A stretch of DNA of 64,000 nucleotides from contig NC_134033.1 of assembly GCF_964204645.1 (NCBI RefSeq), forward strand, positions 15,874,155 through 15,938,154, written 5' to 3'. Both the position numbers and the translations under genes were made by a program. How positions within the stretch are numbered: position 1 is the first letter of the stretch; each line of letters starts with the position of its first letter. The notes beneath the pieces were generated by a model, which had not been told where the DNA came from, did not search any database, and saw only the letters and a list, made by a program, of their open reading frames with translations. Origin of the DNA: Tubulanus polymorphus (taxonomy: Eukaryota; Nemertea; Palaeonemertea; Tubulaniformes; Tubulanidae). This document shows positions 25,860 through 53,660 of this stretch, piece by piece.

Positions 25860-26235
25860 GTAATAAGGAATAGAACTAAAATGAGCTTAAGACTGGTCTT
25901 AAGTTGTTTGATTGGTTATAGAACCTCCAGAATGAACTTAGACTGGTCTTAAGTTGCTAGATTGGTTATAGAACCAAAACGAGCTTAGACTGGTCTTAGG
26001 TTGTTAGATTGGCTATAGAACTAGAATGAACTTAAGACTGGTCTTAAGTTGTTAGATTGGTTATAGAACTAAAATGAGTTGAGACTGGTCTTAAGTTGTT
26101 AGATTGGCTATAGAACTAGAATGAACTTAGACTGGTCTTAAGTTGTTAGATTGGCTTTAGAACTAGAATGAACTTAGACTGGTCTTTAGTTGTTAGATTG
26201 GTTATAGAACCAAAATGAGCTTAGACCGGTCCAGA
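25860..26235. repeat. ~47-bp satellite (ACTGGTCTTAAGTTGTTAGA)
   Basis: Roughly eight tandem copies of a 47-bp unit containing ACTGGTCTTAAGTTGTTAGA and TTGG(T/C)TATAGAAC(C/T)AAAATGAG. The unit is an internal piece of the GGGGCC-ended MITEs. Confidence 0.85.
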
Positions 26236-29183: not shown

Positions 29184-32100
29184 TCAGCCAGCATATATTG
29201 TAGAAAGGTCTGCGGAAGTAGATACCACCTCAGCCGTCGCTGGTCGCGGCGGGGCTGGATTAGCGCTACCCCTTGCCGTGTGCGGGTTCGACGAACCGGA
29301 GCCCGTGGGTCCGACTGATACGAGCGGACCCGGGTAGCCGCTAGGCGGCGCCGTTTGTGGCTGTATGGAGCTGTCGGGTCGGTTGAATTTCACTTTCTGG
29401 TTCGCCGTTTCTACGTACAACACCGCGTATATCTTCGGCAAGAAGAGAAACACTAATGTGACCGTTCCGTTGAATATCAGAGCCAGAGATAAGAGTATTA
29501 TCTGATAATAAGCCTTAGTAGTGGTGAAATAAGTAGATATGAACGCCAGCCAGATTACTAGCGTCGTATACACGCAAAGAGCTATGAATCGCGACTCGTT
29601 GAAATTGTCGGGTACCTTTCGAGTTTTGAACGCGTAGAACGAACACATCGTGACCAGTATCAAGTTGTATAACAGAAACGCGCAGAGACCTTCAAACGGG
29701 ATCGCGCACGACATCTCGACGTAGTTTATTACCGATACGGGCATGCGCAGTATCACATCCGGTGGCGTAATGGCCGTACTGATTACGCTGATGATAATCT
29801 GAAAAAATGGAAAAAGGAAATTGTCAAAATTTTGCTTATGAAATCGACGATATCAAAATCAGATTCAAGAAATGCCTATTCACAATTCCTCCTATGACAT
29901 CATCAGAGACTGCAGTCTGCTATAGCATAATATTCATATTCGAAACTGACCATCAGTGAAGTCATATAATATGCTAATAGAGACATTTTTGTTCAAATGG
30001 TTTAAAATTGTCGCTTTTCAAGACATAATCTTATGTAAAGAGTTTTGACAATGTGTTTACGTCAAGCGCTTCTCGGGAACAAATAGAGCTTTAGTAGTAA
30101 TTTACGATTGGTCTTGCGGCAAATTATCTTGGTGTGATATCATGGAGGGGGTATTCATCGTGATGGGGGTATTCATTGGGCGACACGAAGATGCTAGAAG
30201 TGAAAAAAAGGAACGATCTTTGATTTGAAGTTTTGAGTATTACCTGAATAGTAATAATGAAACTGGCGATGAAAACCTGAAATTTCTGCCCGACTAAAGG
30301 TGGCGCTTTCATCGCCTTTTTACTGTACTCGAATATGATATAAATGCGGCTGGTTTTCGTCAGCAGCGGCGCGTAGACCCAGGTAAACCCGAGACTAAAC
30401 CCGAAATAAGCGGCTCTACACGATATAACTGTCGGTTTTACGACCAATAGAAATACAGTTACGTATCCGATGAAAACCCCGATCAACATCAAATGGCTGA
30501 GTTCCCGACTCGAAGCCATGATCAGTTTCTCTTTGCGTTTCAGTATGTACACGATCGTGGTTACCAGGGTCAGAATGATTCCTACAACCGCCGACATTGC
30601 CAACGTGTAGAAAGCTGCATCGTCGGTTTCCATGAAATATGGCTCGATCGGTTGGCATTCTAGGAAACTGGTTTGATTGGGCCAATGCAATTTCGCGCAC
30701 GGTTCGCATGTACTTTCGTTGACTACGATTTCGTTAACGGCGCATGCGCGACACTCCCAACAACAGGACAGTTCGCGGGGCAGGTAGAAATGGCCCGGTT
30801 CGCACGGCTTCGAACAAACAGATTCCGGAATAAGGACGTCGTTTTCATCACCGCCAGGGGGAGTTATTGGTCGGAATGGCTTCCATTTGACCTCGGAACC
30901 GTTCCAGTACATGGTATTCTCACGCGCGTACCACAGCGCTACTTTCTGTTTATGATATAGTGCACCGGCGCGTAGTGATTCGCCGCGGACGAACTGTTCG
31001 ATCGCGTATGTACCCATTAAATCGGATTCTTCGTTGAATAATATGTCACCGGTCAAACCACGAAATGTCGTATTCTTTAGATATTCCAACAAACTAGGAC
31101 CGTCGATACACGCTACTAACGCCGCCCTATCGGTGGTATTCGCGCAGCGGTCCCGGATTAACGAATCTAACGCGCGGGCGAATGTTTCCACCGAGTCGAT
31201 AACAGGTGCTATTGACGTCATCGGTCGCACGTGACCCGGCAGTAGTGGTCCCGTCTCGTTACACGGGGGTCGCTCTCCGCCGCCCACTATCCACGAGCAC
31301 CCGAACTGCATCTCCCAGAATTCTCGGAACCACGGGTTCGACATCCTGTTCGTCGGATTTAACGTCAGAAAATAACGATTGAAATCCGGTACGTTTACGG
31401 ATATGGGTAAGACGTGTAAAGCGCCGTGGATGGCTTCTTCTAGGCCGGACATCTGATTTACCCGAGCTGACCACGCGTCGCTGCCAATCCATATAAAATG
31501 CCCCGTAACGTTTTTCCTCAACACGGCCGCGAACAGACCTTTGGCGTTCGTCGGTCCAGCGAACACGATCACAGCTCGCGCCGCTTTCACCTCCAGTAAC
31601 CTATCGACGATCGTATCGTATTGTTTAACGGTCGTATCTTCGTAAACCCGCGCCGAATAAGCGATACAGCTGCCCCTTAAGTCGGTCAGGTCTGATAGAG
31701 ATTTAAACGCATTTTCGCCGTACGTTCCGGCCGTGTAGACCACCGATACGTAGGTCCAATTAAACCGCGTTAATATATCCATCATGGCGCGTACCTGGAA
31801 TTTATCGGGAGGAACTAATCGAAGAAAATACGGATATTCATCTTTACGGCTCAGTTCGTCCGCCGTGCTCGAATAGCTAATTTGAGGCACGTGAAATTGG
31901 CCGAGAAGTTTCGCTACCAGGGAACTGCTGCTACTCTTCATAGCGCCTACGACTCCTTTGACCGGGAAGTAATGTCGCGTTCCGTCCGACTGACCGGTAG
32001 TAGTTGCATTAGCGCCATCTCGCGGTACGAAATGTAACGCCTGACCCATAGCGGTCATATCTTTGATACAACTATCCAAAATGATGAATCCCAGCGTTAC

Positions 32101-32370
32101 GTTGGGCAGAATATCAGTTCTGTTATTCATTAGCTCTACGGCGTAAACCATCGCTTCAATGTACTGCATGATAGCTGTGTTTCTCAACGCATCCCCGCAC
32201 GGTTTACTAGAACTGTAGCCTTGGATCGGGAATATTCCGCCCAAGTTTATATCGCCCAGTCTAGCGTACTGTTTATCCGGTAGTCCCGGCACCCGTATCG
32301 ACCAGACCACACCGAGCATCGCCATAGATACGAACGCAACAATCGACCGTAGTGACGTCATAGCGGGCAA
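29184..32370 (-). CDS. class C GPCR, metabotropic-glutamate-receptor-like, complete, ligand site altered
   Basis: Two exons, 32370-30244 and 29798-29184, phase 0, 913 aa. Signal peptide residues 1-24; Venus-flytrap ligand domain about 38-510; nine-cysteine domain 519-572 (the mGluR number); seven helices from about 587, with the exon junction at residue 709 inside the 7TM region. FKTRKVPDNFNESRF and VIWLAF are typical of mGluRs. Aligned from memory to mGluR1, residues that grip the alpha-amino-acid part are kept (S147, S167, T169, D189, Y217, D298). Both basic residues that hold the glutamate side-chain carboxylate are lost: R78 is L98 (FIILDSC) and K409 is A420 (VACIDG). That pattern recalls arthropod mGluR group X receptors such as mangetout. 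Ligand unknown. The Met at 32361 is an alternative start. Confidence 0.9.
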
Positions 32371-34669
32371 AATTAAACGTACAACAGACTTGACGGTAGA
32401 CTAAATGTCGTTCTTCTCCAAAGAATTCCGCAATTTATTTTCTAACGGTTTTGGTATTCTGCCTTGTTGCCACTTTGTGATAATGGAGTTTAGAACGTAA
32501 AGTTTTCCTCAATTTGGGATTTTTGATTATCTATATCGCGTCCTTGACCTTTATATGAAACTAAAACTCGATCCGACATCAGCTCCAGCGAACGAACGTC
32601 GACAGTTTTCCATTAAGTTGCTTCCAGATAGAAACTTATTTAAAAGTGCCTGCAGATCGCATTACGACCGATATGATGTAAATTGTAATGATTCAATTAT
32701 TTTTGAACGCCTGGTTTTAATGCACCGTCCTTCGCGTGTGTTCGTTTTCCGTCGCCGTTCGCTTGGCGTCGAGTTCTTTTTTTTTGACGAAATGTATTCC
32801 CTTCTCGCGGAGGTTTCGTGTGATCGCGACGAATCTTAATTAAAATCTGAAACGATGTGGAAAGATAACATTTCAGAAAGGATTGGCTGACAAAAAGGGA
32901 TATCCGTAAATACATTTTTATATAGACCTGATTATCCCGAGGGTGAGACCTGTCTAATCGGAAATTACCATTCCGTTTTCGACGCGAGATGTATAATTAC
33001 GGATATTTTTGCGTGGTATTAAAATTGACATATTGTCATTATTCATTTCATAACGTATTCGTTTGCTGTAACAAATTTCAGGTTGCTAGGAACACACACG
33101 AGTGGAGCTAATTGAGTTGTTTTTGGTGATATTTTTGATACAATTACCATCGGGCATTTATCGTTTCACTTGAAAATGGCTGTCAGAAAACTTTTCAAAT
33201 AATCCTTATTTTCAGTTAATCCGTATGGATTTTACCAGGTCCCGCAATCTCTTTTGTGAAAATGGATTCTGTTATCAATTTAAATCTACACTCACCTTTG
33301 TTTGTGACAAGCAGTTTCGCAAGCAATTTTGCTATCTTCCTCCAAAAACTTTTTTTCGGATTTTATCTCTGTTTTTTAATAGTACCTTTTTCTATCTTGC
33401 CCGTAAAACTTTCGAATCTCGCGGCTGCGCAAGCCGATCAGCTACTGTCGAATCGAGCACTCCACGTATCCAGACCGGGTACATCCGAGTAATCAACCTC
33501 CCTCCCTCCCTCGTCAAAACAAATCTTAACATCCATCATCTGGTTACCATGGAGACCAGAAATGAGAACTGCGGTTATGGTTTTTATCTGTATATAATTG
33601 GAGAAGTTAAAAATCCCGTTTATATATCATCGCACGATTGCGCTTTTAAGAAGGTTTGCAAAACCCGGCGCAGCACCCGACCCCCGCTGTGAGCGCGTTA
33701 GCGCGTCATTTACAGGCAGCCGCTAATGACCCGGTAATCGGCGAATGAAACTACTCAGAAATAACACCTATCCTTACGAGATGACATCTCCATTTATTCG
33801 GTTATAAGTCGAGAACGCAACCGCGGCGTCGTCTCCTTTCACGGTCACGGCCGTGAGGCAACTGTATATACAGATTCAAAAGTTTAAAACCAAGAATTCA
33901 TTCAACCAAAAGTTGAAATCACACGACATTTCGAACTGTCCCGTCACCGATGATGATTCCTCTAGTGAGATGTCAAAATGCCGTATGCCATTCAAATTTT
34001 TGGTTGAATGAATTCTATATTTCAACCACACTTATTTCGATAATGGTTGTTAGTTGGAAAACACATTCGCTGTTTCGGATCTTTCAGCTTTTTCCCCATT
34101 TCTGGTTTGATGACACTCTAGTGTGTGCTAATTAAACCAGTAAAAACACGTCTGTTTTAAATCGATACTTGCGTTTTGCTGTTGAGAGGTCGTTCAGATA
34201 TTCGAGTTGAGAGGAGTTCGAAAGTACTTTTATTACAAAAAATAGTTCGAGCTGAACGCGATTATTCGAGTGAATTTAAAAAAGCATGGTTTAAAACATT
34301 AGGAGACGGATAACAGATTTCAACATATGCCGAGTTGAGAAGATTTTTGACTTGATCGGATCCGAGTTGAGAGGAGTCTTCTGTATTCATTATGTACATG
34401 TACATGTATGTTAAATGTGTGTTTGTATATCTGTATGCATGTGTAATGGGTGTATGTCAGCATGTATATCAAATAAATCAAATAATTTATAACAACTTTG
34501 ACGTGGATATTCCTGCTGAGGTTCTTCAGGGAAAATGGGAGGTAGGGGGTTTTTGGTTAGTGGATTCCCGCGAGTAATTCACAACACAAACAGAAACGAC
34601 AGCAACGACACAAGCACCAGCAGCAGCAGCAGCTGCTCAGCACCAGCGGATCAAAAAGCGTGGAAGTTA
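32371..34669. other. intergenic region, no gene recognised
   Basis: AT-rich, mostly single-copy DNA between the GPCR start and the putative 3' end of the long glycine-rich gene. Short open frames (for example 33225-33692) show no recognisable domain. Contains an AGC run near 34613-34635. Confidence 0.5.
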
Positions 34670-34699: not shown

Positions 34700-35391
34700 C
34701 AAGCATCACATTCAGTTTCTTACAAAGCAGTTCGATAAACGATGAGAGAAGACAGGCGCACCGGGTTTTGTTACCTGAAACAAATAGAACAGAAATCAGA
34801 AATGTATTCAGATCCACCTTTTTGTCTCAATTCAATTCAATACTTAATTTCACGGATAAGCGGAACAATAAGAACAGAGGAGATTTAAAGAAAAGAAAAA
34901 AAAACAAATTTACAAATATTGTCTCGCTAGGTGGCGCTATGTGAAGTCAGTCTCGCGCCACGAATGTAATCACGCGGGAAAGCAGTCCGCTTGGTGTTAT
35001 TAGAATGTGGCCGATTCTGAATTTTTGTTTGACTTTATTATGTGTTTTCGTAGTTGACTGACTTACGAACGAGCATGATAGACTTGAAGTTACACCATCT
35101 AGCGGAATAGTGCAGTTCATCGATTGCCCTATATCTATGAATGTCTACTCTACGAAAATTCTACGTGACTTCAAACTTCCTGACGTTTTCGTAATGGATA
35201 GTTGATTATGGGGAAAAACGATCACCGGAATTTAGTAAGCGATTAGCGTCACCGAATACACCATCAATTACTTAGTTTTTTGTAAACTTTCTAATTTTGA
35301 TTGTAAGATTTCGTACGTCAGTAAACTGTACTTTAGACGCTATAAATGACAAATAATCTTGATGTGACAAATGAATTGATTAACTTACATT

Positions 35392-38300
35392 TTAATGAAA
35401 GTCTTCGTGAACTTCGTGTTTATCTTCGTGCGTATCTGTATGTAAATCTTCGTATATTTCATTCAATCCGTCGCCGTGTACGACTTCACCGACATCTTCG
35501 TGTACCTCGTGCGCATCCTCGTGAACTTCGGGAATGTTCGGTTTGACCGGGTGCACCTCTTCGTGAACCTCCTGATGATCCTCGTGCGAGTCTGAATGCA
35601 CGTCGTTGTGTATCTCATCGAGTCCGTCGCCGTGCACAATTTCGTGCTTGTCCTCGAATACCTCGTCTACATCCTGATGTACCTCTGGATGCTCCTTCGA
35701 GGGTTCTATCACGACCTCGACTCCTTCCCCAGTGTGCGGTGGTTCTTCTATCACAACAACGACTCCTTCCTCCGTGTGCGGTGGTTCTTCTATCACAACC
35801 ACGACTCCTTCCTCAGTGTGCGGTGGTTCTTCTATCACAACCACAACTCCTTCCTCCGTGTGCGTTGGTTCATCAACAATGATGTAATCTTCAGTAATGA
35901 CGTCACTGCGCCCGATTGCCGGCATATATTCGTCGATGATATGATCATCTCCTTCATCCATCAAAACGGGACCGTGTTTACAACCTTTATGTCCAACAGG
36001 ACCATATCCTCCTCCAGCACCTCCAACCCCATAAACTGCTCCTCCTGTTATATAACTTTTTCCATATGCACCTTCAGAACCTGCATACGCTCCACCTCCG
36101 GCACCTCCTCCATACGCACCTGCTTCTCCGGCACCTCCTCCGTATGCACCACCTCCTCCAGCGCCTAATCCGTACGCACCACCTCCAGCACTTCCTCCAT
36201 ACCCACTTGCAGCACCTGAGCCGTAATTATCTGCTGGACCTCTTCCAGTTCCATATCCACTTATTCTATCTCCTTTGTAACTACTACCCCCGCCAGAACC
36301 TGCACCATAATCTCCAACACCTCCATACGCACCACCTCCTCCAGCATTACCTCCATAGGTAGCACCTCCTGTAGCACCTCCTCCATATGCACCTCCTCCA
36401 GCATTACCTCCATACGCACCACCTCCTCCAACATTTCCTCCATAGGCAGCACCTCCTCCTGCACCTTCTCCATAGGCACCACGTCCAGAATTTCCTCCAT
36501 ACAAAACACCTCCTCCAGCATTTCCATACGCACCATCTCCTCCAGCACCTCCTTTATAGGCACCGCCTCCTCCATAAGCAGCACCTCCTCCAGCACCTCC
36601 TCCATAGGCACCACCTCCTCCAACATTTCCTCCATAGGCACCACCTCCTCCATAAGCACCTCCTCCAGCACCTCCTCCATAGGCACCACCTCCAGAATTA
36701 CCTCCATACGTACCAGCTCCTCCAGCATTACCTTCATACACTCCTCCTCCTCCAGCACCTCCTTTATAGGCACCACCTCCTCCATACAAACCACCTCCAG
36801 CACCTCCTCCGTAAGCACCACCTCCTCTTGCGCCATATCCACCTCCCGAATTACCTCCGTGGCCACCTCCAAATCCGCCTCCATGACCACCTCCAACTCC
36901 GCCTCCGTGGCCACCTCCAACTCCGCCTCCGTGGCCACCTCCAAATCCGCCTCCATGACCACCTCCAACTCCACCTCCATGGCCTCCTCCAAATCCGCCT
37001 CCAACTCCGCCTCCGTGGCCACCTCCATGACCACCTCCAACTCCACCTCCGTGGCCACCTCCAAATCCGCCTCCATGACCACCTCCAACTCCACCTCCAT
37101 GGCCTCCTCCAAATCCGCCTCCAACTCCGCCTCCGTGGCCTCCTCCATGACCACCTCCAAATCCGCCTCCATGGCCACCTCCAAATCCGCCTCCATGGCC
37201 ACCTCCAACTCCGCCTCCATGACCACCTCTTACTCCGCCTCCATGCCCACCTCCAACTCCGCCTCCATGACCACCTCCAACTCCACCTCCGTGGCCACCT
37301 CCAAATCCGCCTCCATGCCCACCTCCGTGGCCTCCTCCAAATCCGCTTCCATGGCCACCTCCAAATCCGCCTCCATGGCCACCTCCAAATCCGCCTCCAT
37401 GGCCACCTCCAACTCCGCCTCCATGCCCACCTCCAAATCCGCCTACATGGCCACCTCCAAATCCGCCTCCATGGCCACCTCCAACTCCGCCTCCATGCCC
37501 ACCTCCAAATCCGCCTCCATGGCCACCTCCAACTCCGCCTCCATGACCACCTCCGTAGCCTCCTCCAAATCCGCCTCCATGGCCACCTCCAAATCCGCCT
37601 CCATGACCACCTCCGTGGCCTCCTCCAAATCCGCTTCCATGGCCACCTCCAAATCCGCCTCCATGGCCACCTCCAACTCCGCCTCCGTGGCCACCTCCAA
37701 ATCCGCCTCCATGCCCACCTCCAAATCCGCCTCCATGACCACCTCCAACTCCACCTCCGTGGCCACCTCCAAATCCGCCTCCATGCCCACCTCCAAATCC
37801 GCCTCCATGACCACCTCCAAATCCGCCTCCATGCCCACCTCCGTGGCCTCCTCCAAATCCGCCTCCATGCCCACCTCCAGATCCACCTCCATGACCACCT
37901 CCAACTCCACCTCCATGGCCACCTCCAAATCCGCCTCCATGACCACCTCCAAATCCGCCTCCATGCCCACCTCCGTGGCCTCCTCCAAATCCGCCTCCAT
38001 GCCCACCTCCAGATCCACCTCCATGACCACCTCCAACTCCACCTCCATGGCCACCTCCAAATCCGCCTCCATGACCACCTCCAAATCCGCCTCCATGCCC
38101 ACCTCCGTGGCCTCCTCCAAATCCGCCTCCATGGCCACCTCCGTGGCCTCCTCCAAATCCGCCTCCATGCCCACCTCCAGATCCACCTCCATGGCCACCT
38201 CCAAATCCGCCTCCATGGCCACCTCCAAATCCGCCTCCATGGCCACCTACATGGTCACCTCCAAATTCGCCTCCATGACCACCTCCGACATCGTCCAATC

Positions 38301-39858
38301 CTCCGATATGATCTGGTCCTCCCATGTGATCTGGTCCTCCCATGTGGTCGAGTCCTCCCATGTGATCTGGTCCTCCCATGTGATCTGGTCCTCCCATATG
38401 ATCTGGTCCTCCCATGTGATCTGGTCCTCCCATGTGGTCGAGTCCTCCCATATGATCTGGTCCTCCCATGTGGTCTGGTCCTCCCATATGAGCTGTTCCT
38501 CCCATATGATCTGGTCCTCCCATGTGGTCGAATCCTCCCATATGATCTGGTCCTCCCATATGATCTGGTCCACCCATGTGGTCGAGTCCTCCCATATGAT
38601 CTGGTCCTCCCATGTGGTCGAGTCCTCCCATATGATCTGGTCCTCCCATGTGGTCGAGTCCTCTCATATGATCTGGTCCTCCCATGTGGTCGAGTCCTCC
38701 CATATGATCTGGTCCTCCCATATGATCTGGTCCTCCCATATGATCTGGTCCTCCTATATGACCTGGTCCTCCCATGTGGTCGAGTCCTCCCATATGATCT
38801 GGTCCTCCCATATGGTCTGGTCCTCTCATATGATCTGGTCCTCCCATATGATCTGGTCCTCCCATATGATCTGGTCCTCCCATGTGGTCGAGTCCTCTCA
38901 TATGATCTGGTCCTCCCATATGATCTGGTCCTCCCATGTGGTCGAGTCCTCTCATATGATCTGGTCCTCCCATATGATCTGGTCCTCCCATATGATCTGG
39001 TCCTCCCATGTGGTCTGGTCCTCCCATATGAGCTGGTCCTCCCATATGATCTGGTCCTCCCATGTGGTCGAATCCTCCCATATGATCTGGTCCTCCCATA
39101 TGATCTGGTCCACCCATGTGGTCGAGTCCTCCCATATGATCTGGTCCTCCCATATGATCTGGTCCTCCCATGTGGTCGAGTCCTCTCATATGATCTGGTC
39201 CTCCCATGTGGTCGAGTCCTCCCATATGATCTGGTCCTCCCATATGATCTGGTCCTCCTATATGACCTGGTCCTCCAATGGGGTCTAGTCCCCCGATATG
39301 CGGTCCACCGTGACCGTGAAGTCCTCCATGATCAAGTGGCCCACCAGGGCCGTGTGGTCCAGCAGGTCCGTGAGGTCCCTCAGGGCCATCAAAACCTCCT
39401 AGAGGTCCTCCTGGACCGTGTGGTCCTTCAGGACCGCGTGGTCTTCGAGGGCCTTTACGATCCCGTCGACCGAGAGGTCCTCCTGGACCGTGTGGTCTGC
39501 GAGGGCCTTTTGGTCCCCTGGGACCGAGAGATGCTCCAGGGCCGCGTGGTCTACCAAAAGGTCCTAAATAGAAAACAATATTTCAAGTCATTTTAGTGAA
39601 ATACATGTTGAATGATGTTCATTGAATACTCTTTGACAGTAATGTAATATGTTTATTTCTACAGCACGTTCCATAGGAAGGTGGCTGCATCCATTCTTGA
39701 TTCCCCCTATGACGTTGTCATTATAATCGTCATAAGGGGTTTAACGGATGGTGCCGTCTTTTTTGGATAGCTCTACCTACACGTATACTAACACCTATAT
39801 ACATACCCCCTGAACAAGCTACGAATCCTACAAACACCAGTAACACGAATATCTTCAT
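35392..39858 (-). CDS. secreted mosaic Gly/His-rich structural protein, 1407 aa
   Basis: Family not recognised. Exons 39858-39807 (52 nt) and 39563-35392 join in phase 1. Residues 1-16 ([16 protein letters not shown]) are a signal peptide. Then: interrupted collagen-like Gly-X-Y (about 18-100, [19 protein letters not shown]); about 50 copies of the hexapeptide GG(P/L)DHM (about 105-440); an octapeptide GGGHGGGF block (about 441-925); GGGAYGG(N/G)AG Tyr/Ala blocks (about 926-1205); then an acidic tail with four ~14-residue [14 protein letters not shown] units and a His/Glu/Asp-rich end ([12 protein letters not shown]). No Cys follows the signal region. Alternating His-rich, Tyr-rich and acidic blocks resemble metal-hardened or quinone-tanned extracellular materials (jaw, tube, byssus, shell matrix); that is inference. 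A paralogue lies at 45129-47462. A 5'UTR exon ends at 40116 and is spliced to 39861. Confidence 0.85.
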
Positions 39859-40202
39859 GATCTGATGAAATATTGAACATTGAATTTAGTTTTTTTTTTC
39901 ATGCGATATTGAGAGAACAATTCTGATAATTTGTAATTCCAGCCTCCATAAAACCCCAAATACATCAGTAATTACCGAACTGCATGAGACATCTGATAAA
40001 ATGAACTATTCACAGATGCTTTAGCTAAATGCAATGAACGCAGTACGGTTATTCGATGATGTCATTGGAGGATTTATGGAGGACGTCATCATTTTAGAGA
40101 GTTGATGAAACTTACCGGAGTTCTGTGAATGGTGCGCACTATTCGACGTAACTCCAATGAATTAAGGAAATTTTCTGTCAAACTGAACTATAAATAGCGG
40201 AA

Positions 40203-40210
40203 CTTATATG
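40203..40210 (-). promoter_or_regulatory. TATA box of the long glycine-rich gene
   Basis: Minus strand CATATAAG, followed by TTCCGCTATTTATAG, then a 5'UTR exon that ends with CACAGAACTCCG at 40116 before GTAAGT. The same TATAAGTTCCGCTAT and ACAGAACTCCG|GTAAGT are kept in the paralogue (47753-47764, 47674), which supports both as functional. Confidence 0.65.
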
Positions 40211-40606: not shown

Positions 40607-43398
40607 TGAAGAGTTAAAACCAAGTAGTTTCCAATATTTTCTTTAAATATATAGTCAGATTTCAACCGAGAATCTTGGATTCCCCACGACCATCGACCGA
40701 AGAAAAATGTGATTAGGTGGATCGAGAGATTTAGCTATAGGGATCACATCTTCATTTGGCTTTTTTGGCACTTTGATGTGTATCTATTGGTTTATGATTA
40801 TAGGCAGTGTTTTAAAGTTCACGAAAAATACTTGATGACTAATAGAACTTAATAAAATAGTCTACCTTATAAACAGTACATGTACGGTACTCTCATAATG
40901 GCGTACAGTGCTACTGTGGTAATCGAGGATTCCACGTGTGGCAGGCGAGGATCCGCCAGGTTCGCTAGTGGTCATCCGCGTTCGATATCTTCAATATTTC
41001 AATTAAATCTAAATGAACGTTTCTCTTAAATGAATCAATTATCTATGAAAACTATACCGATATCCGAGTAGAAAAATGAAAGTATTGTACATTTTGGGTG
41101 CTGTGATAGATGCGGGAGTCTGAAAATCTTTGGTAATGAACTGATTTTGACGACAGACGACCTATCACTCGTCACACCATCTGGTAATTTTGCGGGTTCC
41201 CCATTGCGTAAACTATGTATAAGTGGGTAGCTAAACTTAAACAACGAGTTATTGAATTTTTTTTCCATGTACGTCAATCCCGGATTTTTACGCAGGTATT
41301 TTTAGGGATCGGGTTCATTGGCAACTCCCCTGGATCCACCCCTGATGGTGTAAATCATGGGGCGGGGAGGGGGGTTGGTCAGATAGACTAAGAAATATAT
41401 CACAGGACAATATTTGATAATAATGACATATTTCACACTAGCACACCTGGTGGATCCCCGATTGCCAGTGTTAGTTCTCTTTTGCCTCAGCAGTTGACGT
41501 CTCCTCACAGAGCAACTCGAAGGAAAGGAAAATATGCCCAAAGAAGCCGAAAAGGAAAGCACCGAAAGCAAACCAGGGGCAGGGGAATAAGGTGACGAAA
41601 CTGGTGCCTCACTTGCCATTAATGTCGACTTGTTATCTCTTGCTCCACCCATTGTTCAAACACCCCTCCGCAAAAAGTCACAAGATTCTAAAATAACCAA
41701 TGAAATGCAAAATGATATATACATTTTAGATCTTACCTGTTAACAATCATACTTACATGAATACCGAGTACGTACATTCCTTAGCTTGAACTAATATCTT
41801 CCGAAATTGTACCCTCGAGTACAGCAAGGTCGATAACGCGCATTTTTAAATACGGCACTTGTTGTGTTGGATGCTTGGGTGTTTTTAAAATATGAATACC
41901 AGATGTAAGAATCAATAGGGAAGCAGTGTCTCGAGACACAGCTGTTCTATTGTGACAGTCATGTCAAGTCGCTACAAGGCCCACCACGCAAACAACTGAT
42001 AGATCAGTTATCGGCTGGTGGTTTTTTCAATTTTTCATTTCATAATTTCATTGAAACACTTTTATAGATAGAACCTGAAGGGACCATGGAACCACTGACT
42101 TCCTATGAGAAATGGGTCTATTTTTATACTAGCACAACTGGTGGATCCCCGCTCGCCAGTGGTTAATTCTCATTTGCCAGATCATGCAGTTGCTGTTCAT
42201 TTCCATGTTGTTGTTTTCTTTCTATTTTGACCATGGAACCACTGACTTCCAATGAGAAACGCATCTATTTTGACCATGGAACCACTGACTTTCAATAAAT
42301 CACGGGTTATATTGCCATTTCGACCATGGAGCTACATGCAGTTGTAGGTTAGATTCAAAATCTGCGTGCATCAAGCTGACATATTATCAGTGTTGTCTAA
42401 TCTATGAATGATAATCCCCAGTTCAGTGCCTAGCCTAACGAACCGCTTAAATACGTTTTCATGCAGTTTTGTCTTTACCGGTTCGAGGGGTATCTATCAG
42501 CTGTCTGCACTCTCTGTCTGGACGCTGCAGCCCCTCAGTCTGTTTACCCCGCGCCCACTCAATGTAGACCCGTCGTACTCTCAATCTGGACGAACCCTCT
42601 CACAGTACGTCATACTTTCAACGTCAAAATATCAAATCGGAAATGTCTCAATCTCCTGAACTATCAAAGAACTGTTGCATATCCCATTACTCTCCTCAAG
42701 ACTGTGGTTAGATTTAGTACATTTCAAAAATCCTAATAATCAGATGGTTTATTGGAATAGATCAGAATCCTCTTCAAAGTGATCGCAAAAATCAACAACC
42801 CAAAAACTCCAAAGTCGAATTGCAAAAAAAGTTGCATTAGCTTTATTTCTAACATGGTAACAATATTGAATACCTGAAAACATTGTAAACATTGGATTAT
42901 TAATAGTTATACAATTATATAATGAAAAAGCCGACGCAGATTTGGAAACCAGAGGCTTTTTTTCTTCCAAGCCATCATACTCAGCCATCCATGGAGCAAA
43001 TTCAACAAACAATAGCTCATTTGAAATAAAAACGTTGTACTTTCAACCTGGAATAAGATTAAGTCTATAAGAGATTTATCATCAATGAAACCAGGGACAA
43101 CTTAAGTTGGTAAATACTTTTTTTCTGGTACGGGCTGCGTGAACCATGTATATATGCGTCTCGCATAATTAATTCGAATTGTCAGCTAAGTCGAGTTAAA
43201 AGTTAACCCCCGTTCGTGAAACCGGGCCCTGGCACTCTAACATTCGCATCCGATTCAGATACATAGACTGGTGGCCGCTAAGCGACAACCAAACTGTCCG
43301 CCCAAGAAATCTTTGGAAATGTTAAGACGGCAATGTTTGTGTTGACTTTGGCGGGTAGTAAGCAAACCCAGGCCACGCATTTGTTAGCAAACAGTTTA

Positions 43399-44430: not shown

Positions 44431-45128
44431 AGTGTTTCGAAGGCTTTGTTTTACCTATTTGAGCGTCCATGAAGAAGCGATAGAAGATAATCATTGTAGT
44501 AATCAGCGACAATAAATTACCAAAACAAATCGTCTTTTCCAAATTTATTGCCGTCGTCATTTTTTTTATCTCCGTGTGTTTGATCCGTTTTGTGAAAGCA
44601 CGTGTACAGGCTGATTAACTTGGGCAGGACCCACAGGCCGCACCCTGCACATCATCGTATTAACAATCTATTGCCAATGACAAATAGCTGTGTCTTCGAT
44701 ATTGACAAATCTGTATTAGCGAATGACGTTAAAACAATTCTACCAGCGAAATTCATGTTAACTGAATATTTTGTTTTATTCTTAGCAAATATACAATTTC
44801 TATTGGGCGATTATAAATACTTTCGTTTTTTTATCATTGTGAAAACCGTGTAAAATACATGTATTTCTTTTTCAACTCAAAAAAAATATTTAAAAATCTT
44901 ATTCGATATATCATCATATGGGATATATAATTCAATATGTTATTTATGAAAATGACTAACAACCCGAACACAATTTCGTATAAACTCATAAAGATATGGG
45001 ATTCGAACTTATTACGACAAAATCCGAACCACGACGATATCCTTGTAATTAACAGACTGCGCCTGAATCGAACATACGGTGCATTGAACCGAATCGCTTC
45101 AGAGTGAACACACACGAGTGTTCTAGAT

Positions 45129-47462
45129 CTAGTACCCACCTCCTCCAGCATTTCCTCCGTATGCACCACCTCCTCCAGCATTTCCTCCGTATGCACCACC
45201 TCCTCCAGCATTTCCTCCATACGCACCACCTCCTCCAGTATTTCCTCCATACGCACCACCTCCTCCAGTATTTCCTCCATACGCACCACCTCCTCCAGCA
45301 TTTCCTCCGTATGCACCACCTCCTCCAGCATTTCCTCCATACGCACCACCTCCTCCAGTATTTCCTCCATACGCACCACCTCCTCCAGTATTTCCTCCAT
45401 ACGCACCACCTCCTCCAGTATTTCCTCCATACGCACCACCTCCTCCAGCATTTCCTCCGTATGCACCACCTCCTCCAGCATTTCCTCCATACGCACCACC
45501 TCCTCCAGTATTTCCTCCATACGCACCACCTCCTCCAGCATTTCCTCCGTATGCACCACCTCCTCCAGCATTTCCTCCGTATGCACCACCACCTCCAGCA
45601 TTTCCTCCGTACATACCACCTCCAGCACCTCCTCCATACATACCACCTCCAGCACCTCCTCCATACGCACCACCTCCTCCAGCATTTCCTCCGTACATAC
45701 CACCTCCTCCAGCATTTCCTCCGTACATACCACCTCCAGCACCTCCTCCATACATACCACCTCCTCCAGCACCTCCTCCATACGCACCGCCTCCTCCAGC
45801 ACCTCCTCCATACGCACCGCCTCCTCCAGCACCTCCTCCATACGCACCACCTCCTCCAGCACCTCCTCCATACGCACCTCCTCCAGCATTTCCTCCGTAC
45901 ATACCACCTCCAGCACCTCCTCCATACGCACCACCTCCTCCAGTATTTCCTCCATACGCACCACCTCCTCCAGCATTTCCTCCGTATGCACCACCTCCTC
46001 CAGCATTTCCTCCGTATGCACCACCACCTCCAGCATTTCCTCCGTACATACCACCTCCAGCACCTCCTCCATACATACCACCTCCAGCACCTCCTCCATA
46101 CGCACCACCTCCTCCAGCATTTCCTCCGTACATACCACCTCCTCCAGCATTTCCTCCGTACATACCACCTCCAGCACCTCCTCCATACATACCACCTCCT
46201 CCAGCACCTCCTCCATACGCACCACCTCCTCCAGCACCTCCTCCATACGCACCTCCTCCAGCACCTCCTCCATATGCACCACCTCCTCCATCACCTCCTC
46301 CATACGCATCACCTCCTCCAGCACCTCCTCCATACGCACCTCCTCCAGCACCTCCTCCATAACCACTTTCAGCATCTGGTCCATATTTATCTCCTGGACC
46401 TCTTCCAGTTCCATATCCACTTATTCTATCTCCATTATAACTGCTTCCCCCGCCAGAACCTGCACCATATCCATTACCTCCTCCAGCACCTCCATAGGCA
46501 CCACCTCCTCCAGCACCTCCATAGGCACCACCTCCTCCAGCACCTCCATAGGCACCACCTCCTCCAGCATTCCTTCCATATGCACCACCTCCTGCAGCCC
46601 CTCCTCCATACCCACCACCTCCTGTTACTCCATATCCACCCCCTGCATTTCCTCCATAGCCACCTCCAAATCTTCCTCCTCCATGGCCTCCTCCAAATCC
46701 ACCTGCATAATTACCTCTTTGACCGAATCCACCTCCGAAACCACGTCCAAATCCAGCCCCAATGCCTTTTCCAAATCTGCCTCCAGGGCCTCCTCCAAGT
46801 CCACCTGCATAACTACCTCTTTGACCTCCGAATCTTCCATACCCACCACCTCCTCTTACTCCGTATCCACCCCCTGCATTTCCTCCATAGCCACCTCCAA
46901 ATCTTCCTCCTCCATGGGCTCCTCCAAATCCACCTGCATAATTACCTCTTTGACCGAATCCACCTCCAAAACCACGTCCAAATCCAGCCCCAAGGCCTTT
47001 TCCTAATCCAGCCCCATAACCGCCTTTAAATCCGCCTCCCATGTGACCTGGCCCTCCTATATAACCTGGTCCTCCCATATGACCTGGTCCTCCCATGTGG
47101 CCTGGTCCTCCCATGTGGCCTGGTCCTCCCATATGGCCTGGTCCTCCGAGCGGTCCACCAATAGGTCCTATAAGGAAAACAACATTATAATTGAATTATT
47201 TCAGTGAAGTACATGTTGATGTTCAACTCTGTGATAGTAATATATTAATAACGTTATCTTTACAGCGTGTTCCTTAGGAAGAACGTTACATCCGTTCAAC
47301 GCTCTATGATGCTATCATTTCGATCGTCATAAGGGGTTTAACGGATGGTGCCGTCTTTTCTGGATGGCTCTACGTACACGTATACTAACACCTATACATA
47401 CCACGAAGGAAACCTGAGCCAGCTACGAATCCTACGAATGCCAGCAACACGAGTGTCTTCAT
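45129..47462 (-). CDS. secreted glycine-rich structural protein, 699 aa, paralogue of 35392-39858
   Basis: Exons 47462-47402 and 47167-45129 join in phase 1 as in the paralogue. Signal peptide MKTLVLLAFVGFVAGSG. Then a short GGPGHM repeat (six units), two ~75-residue Gly/Arg/Phe repeats (GFGRGFGGGFGQRGNYAGGF each time), and a long [12 protein letters not shown] domain to the C-terminus GGGGY. It lacks the Gly-His block and the acidic tail of its neighbour and is half as long. A 145-residue higher-order repeat (435-bp offset, for example 45581 and 46016) shows recent internal duplication. Probable extracellular, tyrosine-rich fibrous or matrix protein (inference from composition). AATAAA (minus strand) at 44780-44775 is a candidate polyadenylation signal. 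Confidence 0.85.
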
Positions 47463-47752
47463 GATCTGATGAAATAATGAACATTGAATTTAGTTTTCTG
47501 GTCATTCGATTTTGAGGTTGCTATTTCAACGAGATCTTAATCATTTGTAACTGCAGCCCCCATTTTATCCAAAATACATCAATAATCAGTAACTATGTAA
47601 TGAATGCAGTACGGTTATTCATTGCAGAATTCATGGAGGAAGTCATCATTTTAGAGAGTCGATGAAACTTACCGGAGTTCTGTGAATGCTGCGCACTTTT
47701 CGATGTTACTCCAAAAGAAATGTTCTGTCAAAATGAGCTATAGATAGCGGAA

Positions 47753-47764
47753 CTTATATATATG
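47753..47764 (-). promoter_or_regulatory. TATA box of the 699-aa glycine-rich gene
   Basis: Minus strand CATATATATAAG, then TTCCGCTATCTATAG. A 5'UTR exon ends at 47674 (ACAGAACTCCG before GTAAGT) and is spliced to 47465, just before the start codon. Confidence 0.65.
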
Positions 47765-48269
47765 CACAGGTGTGCCAGACACAGATGTGCCAGACAAAAA
47801 TGTCAAATATCATTCGTTTCAATCGGTAACATTTGCTGCAACGCCTGCGGTTCCCTCAACTGAACATCTGTTCTTCTACGGCTAATGTACTTTTGTCATA
47901 GATCGGTTTTGTTTATAGTTTTGTTTTATCGTTTTTGCGCCTCTGCAATTCGGTAACGATAGAAAATACTAACATAAGTTTCGTAACAGGTGGCTTCAAA
48001 CTACAAAACGTCACCACTTAAACACAGTTGTCGGTTTTTGTTTGACTCATTACTCCATTTCTAATATTTAATGACTCTAGAACTGTTGAACCGGGTTCCA
48101 CCATCGAGTTATCAACGAACCACCAAAAATGCGATTAAATTGTGTAAATCCTAGGAATCTAGATAAACTGATATCGTTGGAAATTATTTGATATAATATA
48201 CTTCACTCTAGCAGGCCTGGTGGATCCTCGCTTGCCATTGGTGAATCCCTTTTACCACAGCAGTTTTCT

Positions 48270-48910
48270 TCACGGCGAAATTAAAAGAAAATGAAAATGA
48301 ACTCAAAGAAGCTATAAAGGAAAGTGCCGTAGGAAGGTCAGGGGCTATGGAAAAAGTTGACGAAGCTAAAAAGAGATCAGCAAGGACAAGAAAGAATTCG
48401 AAAAATGATTATTTGAGAAAAAAGTCGTATTTCACACTAGCACATCTGGTGGATCCTCGCTTGCCACTGGTGAATTCTCTTTTGCCACAGCAGTTGATGT
48501 TTTCTTCACAGAGACTTGAAAAACTCAAAAGAAGCTGAAAAGGAAAGCACCAAGGGAAAAAAGTTGACGAAGCTAAAAAAAAGAATTCAGCGAGGACAAG
48601 AAAAATAGTCAAAGAGGCCGTCTAAGATGAAAAGACGGAAGGAAAGAAAGTGGACGAAGCCAAAAAGAAAGTAGAAACCGGCGCCCCAGCTCCAGCCAGA
48701 GAGGGAGCCGCATAAGAAGTCATAAGAGAGGAAAAAGGAAGATACAGAAAAAGCCAAGAAAAAAGTAGAAGAGAAAACTAAGAAACTCAAAGAAAAGGAA
48801 AATAAACTCAAAGAAGCTGAAAAGGAAAGCGTCGAAGGAAAGCAGAGGGCTAAGGAAAAAGTTGAACCTGGTTGTGCTCCGGCCTCACTTGCCATTCTTG
48901 TAGACGTGTT
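48270..48910 (+). pseudogene. decayed Lys/Glu-rich coiled-coil sequence
   Basis: The plus strand reads short Lys/Glu-rich stretches broken by stops and frameshifts, such as KKVDEAKKKVETGAPAPARE and KLKEAEKESVEGKQRAKEKV, with repeated KVDEAKK units. The left duplication copy keeps only a stub (KEAEKESTESK near 41540). No start, splice sites or intact frame. It could be an old repeat gene or simply A-rich repeat DNA. Confidence 0.35.
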
Positions 48911-49080
48911 ATCTTGCTCCACCCATTGTTCAACTAACACCCCTCCGCAAAAAGTCACAAGACCAGTAAAATACAAAATAGTGTATTTTAGACCTTATGC
49001 TTTACTTACACCAATAGTCAGTCCTTTTACTTGAGGTTGAATTTGTATCTACGATGCTTTACCCTTCCACTGCCTTTGAC

Positions 49081-49115
49081 CATGGATTCTAAAACGATTC
49101 GTTTTAGAGTCCATG
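49081..49115. repeat. hairpin CATGGATTCTAAAACG, second copy
   Basis: CATGGATTCTAAAACGATTC followed by GTTTTAGAGTCCATG. Same stem sequence as 8047-8089 with a shorter loop. Confidence 0.7.
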
Positions 49116-49567
49116 CTTTGACTTTCAAAGCAGGGCCAAGAATGCGCATTCTTGATGAACACCGCACTATTAATGACGTAATATTTAATTCTTCGGTGCT
49201 TTTAAATACCCAAAGCAGAGTTATCATTTACCAGATGAAGGGAATCAATAGGATATGTCTCAGACAGCTGTTGTGACTGTCCCCGCCTGCATAAGTCGCT
49301 ACACGACCACAGATAGATCAGTAACCAGCTAGTTTTGTTAATTCTTCATTTCACAATTTTATTGAACACTTTATTAGATCGAAGAGAAACTATTTGACCA
49401 TGGAACCTCCCAATAAATAACGGGTTTCGTGGCTGTTTCGGCCATGGAGCCACTTCAGTAGCAAAATTTCAAAATGGCGTCAAGCTGTAAAATTGTAATC
49501 CACAATAAACAGAAGTGTGTCCTCCACAAACCCATTTTGGTCGTTCCAGATCTCGTTTTGTTGTACA

Positions 49568-49963
49568 TTATTGCCATTGTGCTTTTTGTTCTGCGGCATC
49601 TCTGACCCGGTTCAAATGAGACAGAGTTTTCGCATCCTCCATCTTTCTTTTGTCGACGCCTCTTTCGTCGCGCTGAAAAGAACTATCGCTGCTGCCTCTA
49701 ATCTGTTGCGACGACCGTTTTAAGCGAAGCGACCTTTTACGACGACTAACGCTCCTATCGAAATCCTCATCGTGTATTTCTATATCCGCGAATTCAGGCT
49801 TGTCCGGCACCGCTGGTAACGGGTCGGCGTATCTGCGGTCAAGCGCTACTTCTTCCAGCACATCACCGCCAACTTCGTCTCTAGCTCTGAGTTCGAATCG
49901 GTCATATCCCATAACTAATCCTGACATCGGTACCAACAACAAGCAAAAAATCACGCCTTTCAT
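49568..49963 (-). CDS. small secreted precursor with furin-type sites, 131 aa
   Basis: Family not recognised. Residues 1-19 are a signal peptide (MKGVIFCLLLVPMSGLVMG). The middle is acidic (EFADIEIHDEDFDR). A strong furin-type site RRKR lies at 74-77, with further basic sites at 81-83 (LKR) and 104-107 (DKRK). The only Cys is in the signal peptide, so no disulphide-stabilised peptide is expected. The C-terminal HLNRVRDAAEQKAQWQ could form a helix. Upstream, an acceptor (GTTGTAG, about 49975) and a donor (CGCAG then GTAAGAG, exon end 50120) predict a 5'UTR intron. The gene sits in the part of the segmental duplication missing from the other copy. A neuropeptide-like or matrix precursor is possible; function unknown. 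Confidence 0.65.
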   Translation of the reverse strand: MKGVIFCLLLVPMSGLVMGYDRFELRARDEVGGDVLEEVALDRRYADPLPAVPDKPEFADIEIHDEDFDRSVSRRKRSLRLKRSSQQIRGSSDSSFQRDERGVDKRKMEDAKTLSHLNRVRDAAEQKAQWQ

Positions 49964-51987
49964 TTTTGAAACCTACAACATGAAATGTTTCATCAGAAAA
50001 TCAACCAATCTAGATGACAATGTTACCACACAGCTGAAGAACTGGATCCAGATCTATGAATCTTTTACGTAGAAGGATAGGGTCCCAGCTATAACGCTTC
50101 AGTTAGCTAGCTCTCTTACCTGCGACACAAGAAGATAATAGCATGAAGAAAACGAGACTACAGGTGAAGAAAACATTCTATTATTTGCTCTTTGCGCAGA
50201 AATAGAGAGGCTTACGTGGGAAATACGTTAATACTGACGTCTTTGTGATAAACGAATAAAAATTTTTTTAAAAAGTTACACACATCGGCAATGATGAATT
50301 ACATAATTGTTATGATGTAAGAGTACGAAAAATACATAGGAAGCAATGCTTGCAATCATCACACTTACATGTTACTAAACAAAGAAAAAGAATGAAAATG
50401 AAAAGAATGAAATAGTAGACTTGCAACAATCCATCATGAAATTATGGCACCTATTGCTCTTCCTCTGAGTAGAGAATTGCACTTTGCACGCAGATCACAA
50501 CGATTTTCTTGACCGAGGAAATTTGATCGCAATTATTAAAGTACGGATAGAAATTTCAGCTCTGAACGCTGACGATTGAAACATCTTCGAGCTTAGCTTT
50601 TGAATCCCGTTTGGGTCCTCGCTGTATTTTATATTACAGATGTTTTGTCTGGTCATATTCCCGATGATTCCGTGGGCTTTGTTTCTTCGCAAACAATCGT
50701 CTCGTATATGGTATCATGCTCAAGACAAGATCATTTATTTCAATAGAAACGTGACCTAATACAGAACATATGGAAATGATTTGCAAAGAATTATTCTGAA
50801 CTAGACACACAGCCTTAGACTTTGTATTCTCACAAATAGCAACAATGTAAGAGAGGTTGCACGTATGAATGTGAAAGATAATCACCGGGAGTCCAGTTTC
50901 GCAAAAAAAGTTAAAAACAAATTTCTGATCTAGTTACTACTGGTTGCTTCATGTTTTCAACGAGGATTAGAACTGAAAACTTAACCGTTTTACACTTAAA
51001 ACGTTTTCGTGAATCCGGGCCCAGGAAAAATCTGATTTCCTCGATCCTTGAAGTACGGGTCACTACTACCGTCCTTCTGGGTTCCTTCAAGATTTACAGT
51101 ATCAATCGGCTGTCTGAACCCAAGGAAGCCTCTCAATCTAGATCCTGCACCTCCCAGTCCCGACCCTGCACCAGTTATTCGATAGGTCAAGATAACACAC
51201 ATCGAAAATTTAGTAATCTATTAAATTCCGAGCCAAATTGTGTAACTGTCTCAATCTCCTAATAGAACTGTCGCATATTCCATTCCTCTCGATTTAGATT
51301 CGCATCATCGAACTATTTGACAAATTCTCTGCAGCAGTGAACAGATGTTCATTTGAATAGGTCAGAATCTTCTTCAGAGTGGTCATAAAAATCAATAACC
51401 AATACAACAGAATCGAATGAGTCGCATTAGCTTTATTTTTGAACATTTTTGTTACATAGTAACAAATTAAATAACAAACATACTTGAAAACGTTAAAAAA
51501 AGCTGTATTGTAGATTCATAATAAATCATCGTTTTCATTACTTGAAACATTTATGAGCCGTATGCGGTTGAAATCACAGAATAATTGAAGCAATTGATTT
51601 TTTCTTTCGATAACTTTGATAAAGTTCAAAATGCATTTTGCTTTGACACACACAAGAACTAGAACAGACAGCGCTTGGCAATATGGTAACACTGGCTATT
51701 CCGCTAAATGGCGTACACTCAAATCTTAATTAGTTCATTATTATCAACTTTGAACTGAACTTTTAGGCTCGTTGTCCATGCACTATCACAGGAACAGTCG
51801 TCGTACACAAAAACAGTCGTACATAGTTTTTACAGGTCTCAGTTGAGCTGACTACTATCGAACCAGACAGCATAGTAGCGAAGCCATCACCTCAGTCCAA
51901 TTAAAGTGGCGCTAAATCTGAATACTGGTATTAAGTTTGTTAGCTTGGCTATGAAACTAATCCACTGTGGTGAATCTGCCCTCCCGC

Positions 51988-53175
51988 TTATTCCTGATTC
52001 ACTGACGACGAAATAGAACAGATTTGTAATAACGATTGACAGTTATCCGGTACGTAGCTCTCGGCGCGATGACCCTTTTTATCTTTGACCAGTTTCAGTT
52101 GAGGCGACTGTTCGACCAGTATTCGAGCGACGTCAACGCGACCTCGTTCTACAGCCTGAAATTATATCAACACTTCAGAATGAACCGCGGTCGAACTTAT
52201 CATCGTAGCTAGTGGTTGATTACATCGATGACTTATCCAACCCCTCCCCCGTCCTTGTCCACAAGTCCAAAAAATCTAAAACACCCCTCTACAGCGTGGA
52301 TGTCTTTTATGGACGGCCCCTTATGACATTTGAGTGAATATTTGATTCTCAATGAAAACATTTTGAAAATATACCGATTTTGATTCGAAAGTCAGAGATA
52401 TGGAACTGGGTGCTGAGTTCCGTGAAGCAGACCTTACTAAACTCACTTTATGTAAAGCCGTTTTACCATCATTGTCTTGTAGCAATGGATTTGATTTGTA
52501 AGCGATCAGTAAGCGAATGATATCTACATGTCCGCAGTAAGCCGCACGTTGTAGAGACGTGACGCCTCCGGACCGAGTCCGCGCGTCGACTTCAGCACCG
52601 TTCATTAGTAACACTTTACATACTTCAATCATTCCATGACGACTGGCGTAGTGCTGAAATACAATACAATATCCAATACAATACAATACGCAATACAATA
52701 TCCAATACAATACAATACGCAATACAATATCCAATACAATACAATTGAGGGGGGACTTATGAGACAGGAAAGTAGCCTACCCCTCTCATGGTAAAAGTGC
52801 CTTTTTTCTTGAAAAAGAACAGCCCTTACCATAACCTTATATTCATACCATAACCCGTAACCTTACCCATACCCCTGGACCCTAAGTCCTGATTTTCTGC
52901 GTTTGAAAAAGCCGCCATTTTCGTTCAAGATGGAGACCCTCACTTACCAGTGCGGTATAACCCGACGTATCTTCGCTATCGACGTGAATTCCTTTACGAA
53001 TGAATTTCTCAACTCTAGTCACATCACCGTCAATCGCCGCGTTCCAGATTCCGCGTTCGAATTGCATCTCGTCGATAGTCTGAACCAGTGATGGGTACGG
53101 CGACGGTAAACTGCATCCTCCGGCACCATGTCCACAGCCGCCGGCGCCACCGCAGTTTCTCTGCTCTTTGGACAT
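51988..53175 (-). CDS. ANKRD39: ankyrin repeat domain protein 39, complete
   Basis: Exons 53175-52948, 52653-52447 and 52155-51988, all phase 0, give 200 aa (human ANKRD39 is about 183). The diagnostic start is [20 protein letters not shown]. Ankyrin repeats follow: GYTAL+[36 protein letters not shown] and [20 protein letters not shown]. The N-terminus is Cys/Gly-rich ([15 protein letters not shown]). A small, conserved, probably cytosolic adaptor of poorly known function. Its start faces ZDHHC24 across 485 bp. The intron between exons 1 and 2 holds an AATACAATATCC minisatellite. Confidence 0.92.
52657..52746. repeat. CAATACAATATC minisatellite, ANKRD39 intron
   Basis: Nearly three copies of a ~35-bp unit (CAATATCCAATACAATACAA and TACG) abut the acceptor of ANKRD39 exon 2. 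On the minus strand it supplies a T-rich tract leading into that acceptor. Confidence 0.8.
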
Positions 53176-53660
53176 TTCAGTTCAGTCGTGAAAAACGATA
53201 TTTACGCGAAAGATTATTTCATTTTGCCTCCAGTTTAAACTACGACATTTTACACGAAGAATTCGTCAATAAATCCCCATAAATCACGTAAAACAGAAAC
53301 TACACGTCGAACAGCCGCCATTTTGATTAGTAACAATAATTGACGGCTGACGGACTTTAACACTAAATTACGGAACTGGACTTTTGTTTAATACTAATAC
53401 AATTCAATTAATACTTTATTTATATACTTTATAATCACGCTCGGTATTCCTATTTTTTGTCGTAAATCGTGAAAGTAAGTGATAGAAAAATAAATGACAA
53501 TAGGCGACCTTTTGAGGAATTCCATAAAATAGCTTATATTTACCGATAGAATTTATCTATAAGCTAATCGGACGGGTTTTGAACAAAATCTACTTTTCAT
53601 TGACATTGTTCTTTCTAATGTTCTTTTTTTAAATCAACAATAAATGTTTTTTTTTAGATA
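53176..53660. promoter_or_regulatory. probable bidirectional promoter of ANKRD39 and ZDHHC24
   Basis: The two start codons face away from each other over 485 bp. An acceptor-like tract (TTTTTTTTTAG at 53647-53657) directly precedes the ZDHHC24 start, so part of the interval is probably 5'UTR or intron. No TATA box stands out; precise start sites cannot be read from sequence. Confidence 0.5.

Follow-up and report, generated by a model that had tools for sequence, protein, structure and literature searches.

The question raised by positions 35392–39858 of a 64,000-nucleotide stretch of the nemertean Tubulanus polymorphus genome (NCBI RefSeq assembly GCF_964204645.1, contig NC_134033.1, positions 15,874,155 to 15,938,154; the window, whose own numbering is used throughout) is what a long and almost wholly repetitive reading frame on the minus strand might be for. 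An earlier note on this DNA had described it as a secreted mosaic of five low-complexity blocks, apparently without known family. The coordinates and the length of 1407 residues given there proved exact. Absent from it were a tandem paralogue at 45129–47462, an upstream block shared by the two genes, and a reciprocal expansion of their His- and Tyr-rich parts. The reading to which we incline, with somewhat more confidence than doubt, is that two tandem-duplicated genes, probably expressed together, encode secreted proteins of a silk-like structural type which would form a two-component extracellular material.

The first gene (gene 1) has a coding sequence composed of 39858..39807 and 39563..35392 on the minus strand, joined by a GT-AG splice in phase 1, and yields 1407 amino acids with one terminal stop. 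The start codon (39858) and the signal peptide are located on an exon at 39807–39861, followed by an intron at 39564–39806, so that the earlier assignment to one exon holds for the mature chain and fails for the signal peptide, which has an exon of its own. As had been claimed, the secreted-type chain consists of five low-complexity blocks behind its signal peptide. These are a Gly/Pro/Arg-rich block (39277–39563, residues 17–113), a hexamer block (38305–39276, residues 114–437), a Gly-His block (36859–38304, residues 438–919; 482 amino acids with 63 His), a Gly-Ala-Tyr block (35995–36858, residues 920–1207, with 33 Tyr), which contains at 36154–36309 a non-repetitive core common to both genes, and an acidic His/Glu/Val tail (35392–35994, residues 1208–1407 plus the stop codon) that occurs in gene 1 only. 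The tail comprises 200 amino acids, has a net charge of -54, an isoelectric point (pI) of 4.4 and 26 His, and carries at its start (residue 1212) the only Cys past the signal peptide. The mature product has a mass of 125 kDa, and the overall composition is 47% Gly and 11% His. The Gly-Ala-Tyr domain, the acidic tail and the coexistence of blocks rich in His with blocks rich in Tyr within a single chain had all been recognised correctly. Collagen-like triplets, also proposed, were not borne out: within the first 125 residues no Gly-X-Y run goes beyond 7 triplets without a break, no collagen model in Pfam was matched, and we take the N-terminal segment as Gly/Pro-rich rather than as collagen.

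The big repeats of gene 1 are tandem arrays. When the hexamer block is cut at a fixed period it resolves into 54 hexamers (34 GGPDHM, 8 GGLDHM, 4 RGLDHM and 8 others), 49 of them with Asp-His-Met, close to the estimate of about 50 GG(P/L)DHM hexapeptides made before; the block holds 54 His, 51 Met and 50 Asp. The Gly-His domain had been described as some 480 residues of octapeptides, which is right for the extent and wrong for the unit, a tetrapeptide GGGX in which X is mostly His, Phe or Val. Gly occupies three of the four unit positions in 98–100% of units (over the 463 residues past an irregular start), and successive His are separated by 8 residues in 50 of 62 cases, by 4 residues in 9 and by 12 residues in 3.

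Gly-rich repeats keep several frames open, and the frame was therefore tested by the ratio of nonsynonymous to synonymous differences per site (pN/pS) among the repeat units. For this purpose the arrays were cut at their period and all units compared, skipping stop-containing codon pairs, which are present only in the other frames. The proposed frame gave the lowest value of the six both for the hexamers (0.18, the others ranging from 0.59 to 5.2) and for the Gly-His block (0.33, the others from 0.52 to 7.3), values more telling for the frame than for selection, given that duplication homogenises tandem copies. A plus-strand gene was also considered, there being two open frames of 1022 and 1073 codons on that strand, but was rejected for their higher pN/pS in both arrays. 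In the core, 46 codons could be compared between the paralogues; 8 changes fall on the 34.7 silent sites and 7, which alter the amino acid, on the other 103.3, and the nonsynonymous to synonymous ratio is again the lowest of six frames, on small counts. Because of the exact splice frame, the lowest pN/pS of the six frames and the silent bias in the core, we regard gene 1 as almost certainly a real gene. Slippage and unequal exchange can lengthen repeat arrays in the absence of selection, which is the argument for a decaying gene or a functionless runaway repeat; given 1407 codons without a stop, splice and upstream signals shared with the paralogue, and the bias at silent sites, this account is extremely improbable.

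The paralogue (gene 2) lies about 5 kb upstream of gene 1 on the same strand (47462..47402 and 47167..45129) and encodes 699 amino acids, with a mature product of 55 kDa. The coding part of its signal-peptide exon (47402–47462, MKTLVLLAFVGFVAGSGFLRG) belongs to an exon that matches that of gene 1 in 46 of 55 positions, and its large exon (45129–47167) contains 6 GGPGHM-type hexamers, a Gly/Phe/His segment and a long Gly-Ala-Tyr block. The two genes have in common their exon layout and block order (signal peptide, hexamers, Gly/Phe/His or Gly-His, Gly-Ala-Tyr), and the position and phase of the intron are identical. Past each stop codon, at a distance of about 350 bp, there is an AATAAA site resembling a poly(A) signal (35034–35039 in gene 1, 44775–44780 in gene 2). 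In the intron behind the signal-peptide exon, the first 87 bp (39806–39720 in gene 1) are identical to gene 2 at 76 positions. The start of this intron is as much conserved as the signal-peptide exon itself.

The relationship extends into the 5' regions, which align over 965 columns with 677 identities (70%). Within this alignment an 80-bp block (40399–40320 in gene 1; 47887–47965 in gene 2, with ends set by eye on the alignment) is identical at 77 of 80 positions, while the best 80-column stretch in 2000 column shuffles reached 71. TATA-like, initiator-like and splice donor sites in the 5' untranslated region (UTR) are likewise common to both genes: TATAAG is found at 40203–40208 and at 47758, and the initiator-like TCAGTTTG starting at 40186 has a counterpart, TCATTTTG, at 47736. 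The predicted 5'UTR exon of gene 1 (40116–40184, its start placed from the initiator-like site) ends in CTCCG, followed by the conserved donor GTAAGT. Since the 80-bp block, the TATA-like and initiator-like sites and the UTR donor are all shared, we infer common regulation; the pair is probably co-expressed, judging from these sequence features, which suggest the block as a putative cis-regulatory element. Homologous stretches of 64–78% identity are present further upstream of both genes (41379–42855 and 48171–51446), so the duplicated unit is probably larger than the genes themselves. These stretches are partly Lys/Glu-rich on the plus strand. The first intron of gene 1 also contains, at 40037–40106, a dispersed element of 40–63 bp with 20 further matches among those listed, several of the copies lying at C8:778568-779350.

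In its core and its Gly-Ala-Tyr pattern the pair stands alone in the genome (267.8 Mb in 77 contigs) by the searches made. An 841-bp query from the 5' region has full-length matches at two places only, and the core matches only gene 1 (100%) and gene 2 (85%). All 28 matches to a DNA pattern for the Gly-Ala-Tyr repeat are in the two genes (6 in gene 1, 22 in gene 2), and all 34 matches to a GGPDHM pattern are in gene 1 (1 match for the reversed control pattern). A search with the acidic tail found nothing besides the tail itself. The GGGHGGG pattern is more widely distributed, with 55 of 79 matches in gene 1, 1 in gene 2 and 23 elsewhere (reversed control, 9). Eight of these 23 lie on contig C6, in two clusters separated by 6 kb. 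The first (locus L052, C6:20686600-20689200) has a plus-strand open reading frame at 20687388–20688572 for a different Gly/Tyr/His/Glu repeat protein, which continues into DTSDYAPPG repeats; with the second, at C6 20694064–20694611, it may constitute another tandem pair. In viral contigs, a core-like pattern matched 225 stretches, none of which was confirmed as a relative.

To what class could such proteins belong? Silk-like structural proteins (SLSPs) have been defined by a signal peptide, the lack of a transmembrane segment and a Gly content of 25% or more in a window of 80 residues, and have evolved many times independently, making them a functional kind and not a homologous family (PMC4944945). 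With Kyte-Doolittle hydropathy standing in for SignalP and TMHMM, the top windows in both genes start at residues 1–5, and inspection by eye showed a Lys at position 2, a hydrophobic stretch of 12 residues and an A-x-S cleavage context. Outside the signal peptide the largest 19-residue mean is 1.11 in gene 1 and 0.38 in gene 2. Gly reaches maxima of 0.75 and 0.675 per window, with 88% and 100% of windows, respectively, at or above the 25% level. By sequence, both predicted proteins fall within the published definition of SLSPs, and we consider it very probable that gene 1 encodes a secreted structural protein.

No known family was found for either protein, which agrees with what had been claimed for gene 1. 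At an E value threshold of 0.001 Pfam returned none, and Chitin_bind_4, the arthropod RR cuticle domain, was matched in neither protein nor in the genome, the genome search having no positive-control genome match. Searches of the genome for COX1, the mollusc haemocyanin domain and the annelid erythrocruorin linker likewise gave no match, the last two again with no control genome matched. The lack of RR domains argues against an arthropod, and the haemocyanin and linker results exclude their groups only weakly; that animal domains can be detected in this genome by such searches is shown by a match to a tyrosinase domain. Structure matches of the tail (C-type lectin domain family 4 member M, E 0.0062; hemin storage protein, 0.068) were taken as chance. 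GGPDHM and related strings, five exact repeat strings in all, were not found in about 5.39 million open papers, from which most subscription journals are excluded; a literature search for this block architecture gave no match, and one for DHSxM-type copper motifs a single, unrelated one. Lineage-specific Gly-rich structural proteins are common, but the present combination and its paired design are unusual.

The predictor used for silk-like proteins gave false positives from an immunity-related, Gly-rich sea urchin family (PMC4944945), which brings in the alternative of a secreted Gly/His-rich immune effector resembling SpTransformer. The order of parts in SpTransformer proteins (leader, Gly-rich, His-rich, C-terminal region) is loosely similar to that found here (PMC5427130). 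We nevertheless judge this alternative improbable. As described, SpTransformer proteins are an immune family of 4–55 kDa with up to 260 kinds per animal, RGD occurs in their Gly-rich region, and a Gly-Ala-Tyr block is not among their described features (PMC5427130); here, two genes were found, with mature products of 125 and 55 kDa, no RGD and long Gly-Ala-Tyr blocks.

A structural pair of silk-like proteins remains the reading that we prefer, and the reciprocal composition, with a His-rich gene 1 and a Tyr-rich gene 2, speaks for it. The His/Tyr counts are 151/37 in gene 1 and 7/62 in gene 2; from sequence comparison, gene 1 has expanded the His blocks and gene 2 the Tyr block. The computed pI values of the mature chains are 5.8 and 9.3, and an acidic gene 1 chain and a basic gene 2 chain could attract each other. 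One gland or epithelium would release both chains, which would then condense into a single material outside the cells, with the Gly repeats providing a flexible matrix. The hexamers, the His of the GGGX units and those of the tail in gene 1 may supply reversible, pH-switched coordination cross-links with Zn or Cu, while gene 2 and the Gly-Ala-Tyr block of gene 1 may supply covalent ones through Tyr, as 3,4-dihydroxyphenylalanine (DOPA) or dityrosine. Until assembly, the acidic tail might hold the chain in solution; alternatively, it might serve to bind cations.

We give the metal-binding role of gene 1, by analogy, an even chance, and a cross-linking role of Tyr neither more nor less. In favour of the latter is a tyrosinase domain found at one locus in the genome, as two adjacent stretches of which one has an internal stop. 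There is precedent for the former, as His in polychaete jaws binds Zn or Cu, a case of stiffening by His-metal bonds (PMC13120676, PMC6477608), and the His domains of mussel preCols bind Zn in the threads (PMC6477608). The comparison with metal-binding jaw proteins and tanned Tyr-rich domains drawn in the earlier note was reasonable in the light of these His precedents.

Several points weigh against the two-component reading. The nereid jaw study counts as His-rich a region with at least 10 consecutive His or with 8 His in 20 residues (PMC13120676), and the repeats of both genes fall short of this: gene 1 reaches at most 6 His per 20 residues and has no adjacent His pair, and gene 2 reaches at most 4 per 20. 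The study of Sabellaria cement raises the possibility of metal binding by His proteins, yet the metals concerned were undetected there (PMC12621633). In squid beak proteins it is the deprotonation of His that starts phase separation, so that His-Gly repeats need not bind metal at all (PMC6884462), and SpTransformer illustrates that secreted Gly/His-rich proteins can be immune effectors (PMC5427130). The tyrosinase locus is silent on the site of action. The conservation of the 80-bp block could stem from uneven mutation or gene conversion, and the homogenisation of the arrays limits, as said, what their pN/pS tells about selection.

The squid observation leads to the main rival, in which the proteins are coacervating adhesive or matrix proteins whose His would form a pH switch instead of coordinating metal: they would be soluble in acidic secretory granules and condense at the pH of seawater or tissue into a phase held together by Tyr/Phe stacking, as the histidine-rich beak proteins (HBPs) of squid do. 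The alternation of His with Phe or Val in the X position of GGGX would suit such a switch, and GHGxY repeats indeed phase-separate upon His deprotonation (PMC6884462). As GHGxY is found in neither protein, His and Tyr reside in separate blocks, and the Met and Asp of the Asp-His-Met hexamer would be superfluous for a switch of this type, we consider this rival unlikely, though less so than the other alternatives.

The hexamers could alternatively be the active part of a secreted metal store or scavenger serving Cu or Zn detoxification or transport, with the rest of the chain as a carrier. All three residues, His, Met and Asp, can coordinate metals, and the regularly spaced hexamers contain Asp-His-Met in 49 of 54 cases. 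Such a function leaves unexplained the Gly-Ala-Tyr block and the existence of a sister gene poor in His behind a matching upstream block, and we rate it marginally below the immune effector.

A more far-reaching version of the structural reading can be put forward, which we hold only tentatively and believe more doubtful than the two-component reading itself. One ancestral block protein would have been split by tandem duplication into a matched two-component material with one 80-bp element as its switch: a metal partner (54-unit hexamers and Gly-Gly-Gly-His) and a Tyr cross-linking partner. Gain and loss of repeats in either partner would tune the material in evolution. Were this true, the two chemistries by which a natural material is cross-linked would be encoded by duplicated sister genes in a single 13-kb locus, under a common switch; the evolution of such materials, by repeat gain in one block and repeat loss in the other, would become directly testable; and materials design would gain, in the short, regular Asp-His-Met hexamer, a new candidate for a metal-binding repeat.

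Elsewhere in the window there are genes for an MFS transporter (19149–20405), a class C G-protein-coupled receptor (29184–32400), a protein with ankyrin repeats (52321–52776) and a DHHC acyltransferase (53658–54515). An open frame on the minus strand (49568–49972), situated between the ankyrin gene and gene 2, with MKGVIFCLLLVPMSGLVMG and a furin-like SRRKRS site possibly encodes a small secreted proprotein. Two arrays of a near-identical 47-bp tandem repeat are located at 25870–26231 and 60552–60883.

How do the two proteins compare with systems already known? With SLSPs they share the signal peptide, the lack of a transmembrane segment and the Gly-rich window, while the GG(P/L)DHM array, the block order and the tandem partner are not described in that account (PMC4944945). 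The nereid jaw proteins Nvjp-1 and Nai11527 are likewise secreted and rich in Gly and His (PMC13120676), and Nai11527, with 29% Gly and 16% His, has paralogous transcripts (PMC13120676); the comparison, which is one of descriptions only, sets these apart from gene 1 with its higher Gly and lower His content in regular GGGX and GGPDHM repeats. Mussel byssal preCols are also block copolymers with Gly-rich and His-rich parts and feature metal cross-links, but about half of their chain is a central collagen domain and the terminal His domains comprise 20–100 residues (PMC6477608), whereas gene 1 lacks a collagen domain and has its long His blocks in the middle of the chain.

In the secreted squid HBPs, too, a single chain is built of modular repeats containing Gly, His and aromatic residues (PMC6884462), which weakens the novelty that the earlier note had implied for His and Gly/aromatic modules in a single protein, as Gly, His and Tyr occur together there; they differ from genes 1 and 2 by their GHGxY motif and by the separation, in the latter, of His and Tyr by block. 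In the cement of sabellariids, a Gly-rich, DOPA-bearing component and a His-rich one (Pc-1/Pc-2 and Pc-4/Pc-5) are delivered together in a single secretion (PMC12621633). The proteins described there are basic (PMC12621633), while those of Tubulanus are tandem paralogues, one acidic (gene 1) and one basic (gene 2).

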